In this document: in pieces, positions 43,391-47,368 of the stretch
Numbering within the stretch: position 1 is the first letter of the stretch
Layout: the number at the start of each line of letters is the position of its first letter
Assembly: GCF_030695065.1 (NCBI RefSeq)
Contig: NZ_JAUYTR010000016.1
Coordinates: forward strand, 186,001 to 250,000
Reading direction: 5' to 3'
Length of the DNA: 64,000 bases
Source: Sediminibacterium sp.
Lineage (GTDB): Bacteria > Bacteroidota > Bacteroidia > Chitinophagales > Chitinophagaceae
Notes under the pieces: generated by a model
The model's database searches: none
Seen by the model: only the letters and a program-made list of their open reading frames with translations
What the model was told of the DNA's origin: nothing
Translations under genes and position numbers: made by a program

Positions 43391-43821
43391 TATCCTAGAA
43401 AGCGTTTCATTTCTTTATCTAAATCTCTATTCTTGATTGTATCTCTTTTATCGTGCAATTTTTTGCCCCTAGCTAATCCTATTTCTACTTTTACGTGACC
43501 TTTTTCAGAAAAAAATACTTTTAAAGGAATGATGGTATATCCTTTATCCTTTAGTTTGAGTTGAAGTTTTTTGAGTTCACGCTTGTTCAATAATAATTTT
43601 CGGTCGTGTACTTCAATATGATTGTTGGCTGTTCCATGAGAGTAGGAAGCAATATATAATGCCCTTACCCATAACTCCCCATTATCAAATAAACAAAATG
43701 AATCATTGAAGCTGAGCTTGCCTTCTCGTATAGACTTTACTTCGGTACCGAGTAATACAATACCCGCCACATATTTATCTTCAATATGGTAATTGAAATA
43801 AGCCTGTCTATTGTTCATCAT
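43390..43821 (-). CDS. smpB: SsrA-binding protein SmpB
   Basis: A 143-residue tmRNA partner required for rescue of stalled ribosomes. AYFNYHIEDKYVAGIVLLGTEVKSIREGK, represented here by VLLGTEVKSIREGK, is diagnostic, with IASYSHGTANNHIEVHDRKLL, the VKVEIGLARGKKLHDKRDTIK segment and a basic tail that would enter the decoding site. It shares single bases with accD upstream and the methyltransferase downstream (TAATG junctions), giving a coupled three-gene unit. No ssrA gene is seen in the window. Confidence 0.95.
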   Translation of the reverse strand: MMNNRQAYFNYHIEDKYVAGIVLLGTEVKSIREGKLSFNDSFCLFDNGELWVRALYIASYSHGTANNHIEVHDRKLLLNKRELKKLQLKLKDKGYTIIPLKVFFSEKGHVKVEIGLARGKKLHDKRDTIKNRDLDKEMKRFLG

Positions 43822-44747
43822 TAGCTTCGGAATAAATGAACCAGCTGAGCCAGTTTGTCTTTCAGGTTTTTTCTATCAACTATAAAGTCTAGAAAACCAT
43901 GTTCTAATAAAAATTCACTTCGTTGGAATCCTTCAGGAAGGTCTTTCTTAATGGTTTCTTTAATAACCCTTGGGCCTGCAAATCCAATCAGCGCACCTGG
44001 TTCAGCAATATTTAAATCTCCTAACATACCAAAACTGGCAGAAATGCCACCAAAAGTAGGGTCGGTAAGCATAGAGATATAAGGTAATTTTGCATCGCTC
44101 AACTGCGATAACTTTCCGCTGGTTTTGGCCAATTGCATTAAACTAAATGCGCTTTCCATCATACGAGCTCCACCACTTTTACTTATCACTAAATAGGGAA
44201 GTTTGTGTTCAATACAATAGTCTACCGCTCTACTAAACTTTTCGCCCATCACACTTCCTAAAGAACCTCCTATAAACTCAAAGTCCATACAAGCAATAAC
44301 CAATCCTTCTCCATTTGCTTTGCCCACGGCAACTCTCATAGAATCTTTTAAATTGGTTTTGGTATGAATATCATCTAATCTTTTTTGATAAGGCTTAAGG
44401 TCGGTAAATCCCAAAAAGTCTTTGCTCATAATTTCGTCGTAAAGAACAGTGTATTCTTTATTGTCGAATAAAATATCGAAATACTCTTCACTACCAATAC
44501 GATGGTGATGATTGCATTTAAAACAAACAAAAAGATTTTCTTTTAATTCGTTGGTAGTGCAAATATAATTGCACTCAGGACACTTGTTCCAAAGCCCTTC
44601 AGGGGTTTCTTTTTTATCTGCAGTAGAAGTTTGAATATTCCTACTCTTACGAGTGAACCATCTTGACTTTGCAGGCTCGGCAGGCTGAGTGGTTTCTTCA
44701 CTACCAGTTAAATTCTGTTCTATGTCTTCTTCACGCTCTTTTTTCAT
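43821..44747 (-). CDS. accD: acetyl-CoA carboxylase carboxyltransferase beta subunit
   Basis: A 308-residue subunit that transfers CO2 from biotin to acetyl-CoA for fatty-acid synthesis. The zinc ribbon is visible as CPECNYIC and CFKCNHHHRIG (four cysteines). The crotonase-like domain has ESAFSLMQLAKTSG, the SMLTDPTFGGISASFG motif and GFAGPRVIKETI. A Lys/Glu-rich N-terminal tail of about 45 residues precedes the ribbon. ATG 44747 is preferred to a TTG five codons upstream. The alpha subunit is not encoded nearby. Confidence 0.94.
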   Translation of the reverse strand: MKKEREEDIEQNLTGSEETTQPAEPAKSRWFTRKSRNIQTSTADKKETPEGLWNKCPECNYICTTNELKENLFVCFKCNHHHRIGSEEYFDILFDNKEYTVLYDEIMSKDFLGFTDLKPYQKRLDDIHTKTNLKDSMRVAVGKANGEGLVIACMDFEFIGGSLGSVMGEKFSRAVDYCIEHKLPYLVISKSGGARMMESAFSLMQLAKTSGKLSQLSDAKLPYISMLTDPTFGGISASFGMLGDLNIAEPGALIGFAGPRVIKETIKKDLPEGFQRSEFLLEHGFLDFIVDRKNLKDKLAQLVHLFRS

Positions 44748-44784
44748 ATATCGTGCAATCAAATTGGGGCGGAAAGATAATCAA

Positions 44785-46158
44785 TTATGCAATAATAGGC
44801 CCCAAATGTGCAAAATCCGGGTCTTTTATTGTAAAATCTGCCACAGTATCCACCAAATGATTGGTACTACAAAACGAGACGCCAATACCAGCATTTCTAA
44901 TACAACAAATATCATTTTCACCGTCGCCAATATAAAGCGTGTTTTTTATGTCAATTTGATATTTTTCACACAGAATATCTAAACTATTTAATTTGCATAA
45001 TTCGTGTTTGCATTTACTTTTTGCATGATTAATAAAAAAAGAAGGGATTCTTACTTCACCTGTTGCAATGCTTCTTGAAAATTCTAATTCATTGGCTATG
45101 GAAAAGTCAAATCCATATTTATTCTTTAAGTGATTGGTAATGCAATCATAGCTATCACTCATAATGCCAACGATGTACCCATTTTCTTTTAATTGTTCAA
45201 TAATTTGAGGAAGATTTGGCGTTACATCAATTTGCTCTACTATTTGAATTAATTCATTCAAGTTTTTACCCTTTAATAAATTTGCAATCAATTTGGTTCT
45301 TACAAATGGGTTACTATTATTAGCCACTATTTCAACTAAGCTTTCTTTAAACCCAAATTGATTGGCAGCCTGATTAATGAAGCTTCCTCTTAAAAGGGTA
45401 TTGTCCATATCAAAAATGGCCATTTTTTTAAGTGTAAGTAAGCTATCTCTAATGGCAAAATCCATTTGCTCTCTTACTACTTGAATATTTTCAAATAACT
45501 CTAAATTATGATGCTTTAATCCAGAAGATTTTTGAATAATTGTTTTAGCAACTTCTCTAGACATTTTTCCCAATTGATCAAGTTGCTGCATTCTGTTTTC
45601 AATTTTGCCAATATTCACTTCTGTTATTCTTGCACCCAACTGAAACATATCTATCAGCAATCCTATATCTACTCCATAGCCATCCTCAAATTTACATTTT
45701 ACAAAAAAGGATTTTTTACCACCAATCATTCCACTCAATGGTTGTTTAAACATAGGGAAATTGGGTTTAAGTAAAGCCAATAATGGCTTGGCCACTAATT
45801 CAGTTACTCTGCCAGCCTGACGATCAAAATAAGACTTAGTAAAATCAGCACTATCATCTAATATTGGGAAACTCAATAATTCAATCACATTAGACTGGTA
45901 GCTGGTAATATCCGCATCTAAAAAAACAACGCATTCGTTTTGGGCTATTAATATTCCGTCTAACATAGAAGCTCCTTTGCCCAATTTTGTACTAGTAATT
46001 ACGGTGGCACCTGCGTTTCTTGCATTTATCACCGTTTCATCCATAGATTTATCATCCACTACTATAACTTCTGAAACATTGTTGGTTTTTAATGCCAGCT
46101 GAACAACTTGTGCTACTGTTGAAGCTTCGTTTAAAGCTGGAATTATGACACTAATCAT
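44785..46158 (-). CDS. bifunctional GpgS-like glycosyltransferase fused to HAD-IB phosphatase
   Basis: A 457-residue fusion. Residues 1-215 are a GT-A glycosyltransferase close to glucosyl-3-phosphoglycerate synthase: VIIPALNEASTVAQVV, VVDDKSMDET, LGKGASMLDGI, the metal motif Asp81-x-Asp83 (FLDADI), GRVTELVAKPLL, QPLSGMIGG and GYGVDIGLLIDM. Residues 246-457 are a SerB-like HAD phosphatase: AIFDMDNTLLRG (Asp250, Asp252), GIMSDSYDC and YIGDGENDICCI. It could make a phosphorylated glycosyl-glycerate and dephosphorylate it. ATG 46158 sits directly before the first strand; the frame is open 17 codons further up. Sugar donor and product are unproven. Confidence 0.78.
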   Translation of the reverse strand: MISVIIPALNEASTVAQVVQLALKTNNVSEVIVVDDKSMDETVINARNAGATVITSTKLGKGASMLDGILIAQNECVVFLDADITSYQSNVIELLSFPILDDSADFTKSYFDRQAGRVTELVAKPLLALLKPNFPMFKQPLSGMIGGKKSFFVKCKFEDGYGVDIGLLIDMFQLGARITEVNIGKIENRMQQLDQLGKMSREVAKTIIQKSSGLKHHNLELFENIQVVREQMDFAIRDSLLTLKKMAIFDMDNTLLRGSFINQAANQFGFKESLVEIVANNSNPFVRTKLIANLLKGKNLNELIQIVEQIDVTPNLPQIIEQLKENGYIVGIMSDSYDCITNHLKNKYGFDFSIANELEFSRSIATGEVRIPSFFINHAKSKCKHELCKLNSLDILCEKYQIDIKNTLYIGDGENDICCIRNAGIGVSFCSTNHLVDTVADFTIKDPDFAHLGPIIA

Positions 46159-46245
46159 GATAAAATCATTTAAGATTAAAAAAAGCTTAAATGCAATCGC
46201 AATCATCATGCCACAGAAATACCCTGCTTAATTAGGTTTAATAAA

Positions 46246-46280
46246 AAACTCCATATAGTTAATGTAACTATATGGAGTTT
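46246..46280 (-). terminator. intrinsic terminator after fbaA
   Basis: A perfect 16-bp inverted repeat (46246-46261 and 46265-46280, 3-base loop) is followed on the minus strand by a run of six T. It separates fbaA from the glycosyltransferase fusion. Confidence 0.9.
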
Positions 46281-46300
46281 AAGGTATTAGGAAAAATAGA

Positions 46301-47368
46301 TTATGCGTTTCTATTAATACAATTCAAGTCTTCAAAAGCTATTTCTAATCTTTTTGAGAAGCTTTCTTCTGCTTTTCTTAACCAAACCCTTGGATCATAG
46401 AACTTCTTATTCGGTTTATCTGCCCCTTCAGGGTTACCCAATTGGCCTTGTAAATAAGCTTCGTTCTTTTGGTAGAAGTCTTTTATCCCTTCCCAAAAAG
46501 CCCATTGTAAGTCGGTATCTATATTCATTTTGATTGCCCCGTATCCAATAGCTTCTCTAATTTGGTGTTGAGGAGAACCACTTCCACCATGGAAAACAAA
46601 GTATACTGGCTTTAGGCCAGTTTTTAATTCGGCCTGAATAAAGTCTTGGCTATTTTTTAAAATTTCTGGCCTTAATTCTACATTTCCAGGCTTATATACA
46701 CCATGAACATTACCAAAAGCAGCTGCTACAGTAAACATATTTCCTACTTTGCTTAACTCGGTATAAGAATAGGCAACATGTTGAGGTTGTGTGTATAATT
46801 TGTCGTTTTCTACATCACTATTGTCTACGCCATCTTCTTCACCACCGGTAACTCCCAATTCAATTTCAATACTCATGCCCAAAGGAGCCATGCGCTTATA
46901 AAATTCAACAGAGGTTGCAATATTTTCTTCTAATGGTTCTTCTGAAAGATCCAACATATGTGAACTAAATAATGGACGTCCTTTCTCTTTAAAGTATTGT
47001 TCACCGGCATCTATTAAGCCACTTACCCAAGGCAACCATTTTTTTGCAGCATGGTCGGTATGTAATACTACCGGAACACCATAATATTTAGCCACATTGT
47101 GAATATGCAATGCGCCAGAAACCCCACCAGAAATATTTCCTTGAAGGGCATCATTGGGCATCCCTTTTCCCGCAACAAACTGAGCCCCTCCATTCGAAAA
47201 CTGAATAATCACAGGAGAGTTTACTTTAGCGGCGGTTTCTAAAGTAGCATTTATGGTATTAGTACCAATGGTATTTACGGCAGGAAGAGCAAATTGATTG
47301 TCTTTAGCATCGTTGTATAATGCTTCTAATTCGTCTCCAAACAAAACGCCTGAGCTGTATTTTTTCAT
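46301..47368 (-). CDS. fbaA: class II fructose-bisphosphate aldolase
   Basis: A 355-residue zinc aldolase of glycolysis and gluconeogenesis that splits fructose-1,6-bisphosphate. PAVNTIGTNTINATLETAAK, the zinc His region VVLHTDHAAKKWLPW, SIEIELGVTGGEEDGVDN, AAFGNVHGVYKPGN, FVFHGGSGSP and INTDT-like KMNIDTDLQWAFWEG are canonical for the long (class IIA) form. Length matches Escherichia coli FbaA. It is followed by a very strong terminator, consistent with high expression as a single gene. Confidence 0.96.
   Translation of the reverse strand: MKKYSSGVLFGDELEALYNDAKDNQFALPAVNTIGTNTINATLETAAKVNSPVIIQFSNGGAQFVAGKGMPNDALQGNISGGVSGALHIHNVAKYYGVPVVLHTDHAAKKWLPWVSGLIDAGEQYFKEKGRPLFSSHMLDLSEEPLEENIATSVEFYKRMAPLGMSIEIELGVTGGEEDGVDNSDVENDKLYTQPQHVAYSYTELSKVGNMFTVAAAFGNVHGVYKPGNVELRPEILKNSQDFIQAELKTGLKPVYFVFHGGSGSPQHQIREAIGYGAIKMNIDTDLQWAFWEGIKDFYQKNEAYLQGQLGNPEGADKPNKKFYDPRVWLRKAEESFSKRLEIAFEDLNCINRNA

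Follow-up and report, generated by a model that had tools for sequence, protein, structure and literature searches.

The stretch of Sediminibacterium sp. DNA analysed here, 64,000 nucleotides in length (contig NZ_JAUYTR010000016.1, positions 186,001 to 250,000; hereafter the window), contains at 44785..46158 on the reverse strand a gene whose 457-residue product joins a GT-A glycosyltransferase resembling the glucosyl-3-phosphoglycerate synthase GpgS to a phosphatase of the HAD-IB type. We consider it likely that this fusion is a bifunctional glycosylglycerate synthase, with glucosylglycerate as its most probable product. In the mechanism that we propose, the N-terminal half would transfer a sugar from a nucleoside diphosphate sugar to the 2-hydroxyl of 3-phosphoglycerate, with retention, and the C-terminal half would remove the phosphate from the resulting glycosyl-3-phosphoglycerate, pulling the reaction forward. 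The free anionic solute released could offset K+ when the cell meets salt or another stress; glucosylglycerate is negatively charged and apparently balances K+ (PMC4390839).

The first-pass annotation of this DNA had offered much the same reading, and its two central components, the GpgS-like half and a phosphatase drawn from the SerB branch, are borne out by the comparisons below; its suggestion of substrate channelling is not supported, and neither is any functional link to the neighbouring aldolase gene. Two structure models of the fusion, from 16 sequences (predicted template modelling score, pTM, 0.50) and from 58 sequences (pTM 0.52), both leave the orientation of the domains unsettled, and the two-step mechanism would not need physical channelling.

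A GpgS-like glycosyltransferase joined to a HAD-IB phosphatase

The gene is a single open reading frame (ORF) with an ATG start, and its relatives are equal in length. An alternative in-frame start upstream, at 46209, would give 474 residues; the starts of the relatives correspond to the later methionine (46158) or lie at most three residues from it. The motifs named in the first-pass annotation (GRVTELVAKPLL, QPLSG, GYGVDIGLLID, DMDNT, SDS and GDGEND) are all found in the 457-residue protein, and the ORF is exactly as described there. The GT-A domain occupies residues 1-213 (45520..46158, on the reverse strand, as are all the window features given below) and the HAD-IB domain residues 244-457 (44788..45429), with a linker region of residues 214-243 (45430..45519) between them in which model confidence is partly low.

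The glycosyltransferase half matches Pfam Glycos_transf_2 (2.7e-17) and the HAD half Pfam HAD (1.1e-12), the latter also passing the cut-off of the HAD-IB subfamily model TIGR01488 (64.2 bits against 45). The top matches in a sequence search of the Protein Data Bank are GpgS 4y6n (1.6e-29) and the phosphoserine phosphatase 1f5s (2.5e-20). Among the 120 relatives listed of 4334 matches, all have E values of at most 7.2e-206, alignments span the query completely (100%) in 119 (the exception, P0066, covers 80%) and nearly all are 456-458 residues long. They carry names such as Sediminibacterium, Ferruginibacter, Flavihumibacter and Chitinophagaceae and are variously labelled 'glucosyl-3-phosphoglycerate synthase', 'HAD-IB family phosphatase' or 'phosphoserine phosphatase SerB'. 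A gene-calling or assembly error as the source of the fusion is ruled out by these full-length alignments and by the recurrence of the architecture in other phyla.

Active-site residues of the glycosyltransferase half

Residues were counted in an alignment of the window protein with 72 of the best 80 loci from a scan of named genome contigs, in which 52 rows are fusions (the window protein and 51 loci). E11, K61, D83, G116, R117, V118 and M199 are conserved in all 52, T119 and Y161 in 51 and D81 in 50. D81 and D83 belong to the DAD (DxD) metal/nucleotide motif at residues 81-83 (45910..45918), and the conserved GRVTEL sequence at residues 116-121 (45796..45813) aligns with the pair Val186/Thr187 in the GpgS of M. 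tuberculosis, residues that contact the carboxylate of 3-phosphoglycerate (PMC2581804). The partners of most of the conserved residues in that enzyme bind ribose, metal, the donor sugar or the same carboxylate (PMC2581804). The protein has the GT-A fold with both the DxD motif and the GRVT acceptor loop of GpgS, and most acceptor and donor residues are retained.

The same reaction with GDP-mannose as donor, yielding mannosylglycerate, is in our view unlikely. The Asp that all 52 fusions have at the position of GpgS Glu232 is shared with the mannosylglycerate synthase MgS, but the match of the fusion to GpgS (1.6e-29) is far stronger than that to MpgS (3.4e-18). The QPLSG motif, discussed as unfavourable to mannose (PMC2581804), is also retained in the Bacteroidota fusions, although this is weak evidence on the donor because 17 of the 18 fusions outside Bacteroidota, and 8 of the 16 GT-only rows, have Gly in place of its Ser.

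It is very unlikely that the glycosyltransferase acts on a different acceptor, such as a polyprenyl phosphate or another phospho-acid. GT-A family 2 does include polyprenyl-phosphate and lipid-linked transferases, and the surroundings of Asn188-Met190 are altered relative to GpgS, but the matches to such enzymes (AglJ, 2.3e-18; PpgS, 1.3e-9) are much weaker than that to the GpgS model (5.7e-53), and Thr119, the acceptor residue of the GRVT loop, is retained in 51 of 52 fusions.

Several observations nonetheless weigh against a glucosylglycerate-producing enzyme. The match to the NCBIfam GpgS model NF010496 (5.7e-53) scores 180 bits, below the cut-off of 262, and that of the HAD half to the SerB model TIGR00338 (1.5e-32) scores 113 bits, below 144.15. 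The position of the GpgS metal-site residue His258 is by alignment Asn188 in the window protein (45595..45597), and is Asn in 34/34 Bacteroidota fusions and His in 16 of the 18 others. All 52 fusions have Asp in place of both Glu232 and the nucleotide-pocket residue Ser81; Glu212 is likewise substituted in all 52, and Asn260 in 51. Two fusion copies (L023 and L034) have, as judged by eye, a damaged HAD half with intact glycosyltransferase motifs. No stress or ion-transport gene adjoins the fusion in the window genome, where its neighbours are fba and accD, and this genome has no match to PF22422, a mannosylglycerate-hydrolase-like family and candidate turnover enzyme. Finally, our literature search found no assay of any fusion member.

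The HAD half and the serine question

The window protein has the HAD-IB catalytic residues that correspond to Asp11, Asp13, Ser99, Lys144, Asp167 and Asp171 of SerB (M. jannaschii numbering). The nucleophile Asp250 of the DMDNT motif (residues 250-254; 45397..45411) is conserved in 52/52 fusions, Lys389 in 51, Asp252 and Asp416 in 48 and Asp412 in 45. SerB recognizes phosphoserine through Glu20 (amino group) and Arg56 (carboxylate), and at these positions the window protein has Ser259 (45382..45384) and Ile291 (45286..45288). Neither Glu nor Arg is found at its position in any of the 52 fusions, in which the Arg56 position is Ile in 43, Val in five and Thr in four. Both are likewise missing from eleven fusions selected for comparison with the control proteins, and from the HAD proteins of the two split pairs described below. 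By contrast, both residues are retained by 7/7 SerB-like proteins of the same order, the control being seven of its twelve non-fusion SerB matches; the remaining five were excluded because they were damaged, belonged to another HAD type or lacked a locus. The loss of the phosphoserine-binding residues strengthens the earlier reading of the phosphatase as one recruited from the SerB branch, apparently for a new substrate. Free-standing Chitinophaga HAD proteins of the fusion type (P0286, P0288, P0311 and P0350) also lack Glu20 and Arg56, as judged by eye.

That the HAD half is a true phosphoserine phosphatase, making the fusion a two-way branch at 3-phosphoglycerate, is highly improbable. SerB is the best specific family of this half, and the window genome contains SerC together with six further matches to the SerB model that are weak (at most 31.4 bits) and lie in frames of 679-939 residues, from which lengths we take them to be P-type ATPases. 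The idea that the HAD half is the SerB of the cell, there being no other strong match, was dropped. Besides the loss of Glu20 and Arg56, every one of the 36 good genomes in the genus has SerC but only five have the fusion, so serine is presumably made without it, and both points disfavour a SerB role. Of the 148 genomes of the order, moreover, 121 have no SerB match at 1e-10, and the window genome has two further small HAD proteins, by eye of other types (L039 and L040), that could serve as alternative phosphoserine phosphatases. Three loci of the order (L025, L031 and L036) have, by eye, a SerB-like HAD domain fused to SerA-like sequence.

Least likely of all is a mainly regulatory or sensory HAD half with the glycosyltransferase making a phosphorylated product, for although the damaged copies L023 and L034 would suit it, all the compared catalytic HAD residues are intact in the window protein, and Asp250 and Lys389 are nearly invariant among fusions. 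One genome (G095) has two fusion copies, the damaged L034 and L013, whose nucleophile motif is intact.

The HAD half also contains a CxHxxCK motif (residues 383-389; 44992-45012), the last residue of which is the HAD lysine. Among the 34 Bacteroidota fusions, 29 keep the first Cys, 30 the His and 30 the second Cys, and the motif is possibly a metal or redox site.

Distribution and natural variants

The distribution of the fusion gene is patchy. It is present in 6 of 61 genomes of the genus (the good genomes included), and in 6 of 296 genomes of the phylum. In the order, 18 genomes out of 148 have it, with 19 copies in all, L023 and L034 among them (L024 was judged by eye). The best 80 loci include fusions from Bacteroidota, Burkholderiales and Acidobacteriota, as well as from one bin each named Bdellovibrionales (L084), Gemmatales (L104), Deltaproteobacteria (L053) and Paceibacterota (L063); such lone bins may be mis-sorted. 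L053 falls within the Bacteroidota branch of a tree of the glycosyltransferase half, and L063 is cut short and absent from it. In this tree the fusions group with two split genes (86/85, an unstarred branch), separate from the GT-only GpgS types (95/90). The split forms are those of Pseudarcicella hirudinis (L070) and a Sphingobacteriales bin (L087), in which glycosyltransferase and HAD are two adjacent genes with the break in the linker region; the Pseudarcicella HAD also has the protein record P0241, which comes from three contigs, the length of one being 5.86 Mb.

GpgS-type proteins are also found joined to a phosphatase of another class. The protein P0121 (L121:8001-9383) is a fusion to a histidine phosphatase, by its sequence and by Pfam, and among the 120 proteins listed in a search with it at least 18, the query record included, have both Pfam domains, five of them (P0121, P0123, P0134, P0136 and P0137) confirmed by a Pfam scan. 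Several of these fusions are named Elusimicrobia, and a sixth scanned protein, P0139, has the two parts in reverse order. GpgS types are further fused to universal stress protein (Usp), to Usp plus histidine phosphatase, and to PTS EIIA (P0136, P0137, P0151 and P0143); a literature search combining 'glucosyl-3-phosphoglycerate synthase' with 'universal stress protein' returned no paper with both terms.

Relationship to known systems

A synthase and phosphatase on one chain are, as such, already known from MgsD. There, the synthase belongs to GT55 and the phosphatase is a HAD-IIB MPGP; the corresponding model, TIGR01486, has no match in the window genome, the fusion included, and HAD-IB is the best class for the HAD half. 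MgsD of Dehalococcoides is a single polypeptide making mannosylglycerate, and the fusion resembles it in joining both domains in one chain, in the proposed 3-phosphoglycerate acceptor and in the proposed release of free glycosylglycerate (PMC8490865). Its proposed product differs from that of MgsD, which contains mannose; the comparison with MgsD is one of descriptions.

GpgS of M. tuberculosis (Rv1208) and M. hassiacum shares with the fusion the fold, DxD, GRVT, the Lys114/Asp134 network, Tyr229 and Met269, but was solved as stand-alone chains, and differs at the five positions listed above. As the first-pass annotation had stated, the phosphatase is of another class than the characterized one: GpgP of M. 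tuberculosis (Rv2419c), which dephosphorylates glucosyl-3-phosphoglycerate, is a histidine phosphatase (PMC3866925), so that the presumed common reaction would be catalysed by proteins of different superfamilies. SerB shares the fold and catalytic residues of the HAD half but not its attachment to a glycosyltransferase. The P0121-type fusions likewise combine a GpgS-type glycosyltransferase and a phosphatase in one chain, but with a different phosphatase class and a glycosyltransferase half that lies with the GT-only types in the tree. The HAD-IB fusion would work in the manner of MgsD, but our tests place it in none of MgsD, GpgS and SerB. A search of titles and abstract openings, with subscription journals largely outside it, found no paper describing a GpgS/HAD-IB fusion.

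On balance, we favour the view that glycosyl-3-phosphoglycerate synthases have been joined more than once to unrelated phosphatases (HAD-IB and histidine phosphatase, with MgsD as the mannose parallel), and GpgS also to Usp; that the HAD-IB form is a further class of glycosyl-3-phosphoglycerate phosphatase; and that the fusion is a portable single gene for making an anionic solute, patchily spread over several phyla. If our functional proposal is correct, glucosylglycerate production could be predicted from a single gene in groups where we found no literature report of it, and the protein would offer a compact enzyme for making this solute. The label 'phosphoserine phosphatase SerB' on part of the relatives would then mislead for the fusion branch, which would be a clear case of a SerB-type phosphatase that has adopted another substrate and in which two residues of the substrate site are replaced.

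Genomic neighbourhood

The fusion lies between two genes outside the system, fba (class II fructose-bisphosphate aldolase; 46301..47368) upstream and an accD-like carboxyltransferase gene (43821..44762) downstream. The earlier observation that the aldolase gene has its own terminator holds, in the form of a 16-pair terminator-like hairpin that follows fba (46280-46246), in a stretch where six terminator-like sites were found against 1.9 expected in shuffles. An operon with the aldolase was dropped as functional evidence. Among 13 genomes of the genus in which accD was located and read, fba directly adjoins accD in nine (L144, L145, L146, L149 and L151-L155); the gap holds other ORFs in L148 and another gene in L150, L147 stops before fba, and only in L143 (G157), a near relative of the window genome, does the fusion lie between the two, as in the window. 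Four other fusion-bearing genomes of the genus (L157-L160) have it at other places, and its position between fba and accD (43821-47368) is probably an insertion in this lineage.

Neighbours were counted at 51 fusion loci (766,820 bases), with Pfam checks on L079, L058, L084, L095, L097, L051 and L103. Many of these loci have no Usp, CLC, exchanger or two-component neighbour. Usp-type genes are near 20 of the 51, mostly just downstream in one Chitinophagaceae clade, and at both split loci; Na+/H+ exchangers are near three, both figures being raw counts. CLC channels are near five loci, where 0.14 would be expected at the rate of 39 CLC matches per 59 genomes, all from this order. The comparison was made post hoc, after the pattern had been seen, with profiles built partly from the same neighbours, one gene 5.5 kb away (L058) and two loci that are close kin (L095 and L097). 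A further CLC gene adjoins the fusion of G194 (L160), and about ten members have two-component-type regulator and kinase genes beside them (clusters 9 and 10; Pfam on one regulator). The stress and ion-transport genes found near the fusion in some relatives fit a K+-balancing role of glucosylglycerate. At L027:1462-2169 there is, by eye, an orphan HAD of the type seen in the fusions, its nucleophile motif damaged, flanked by histidine-kinase-like and Usp-like genes, the site that the fusion occupies in some relatives.
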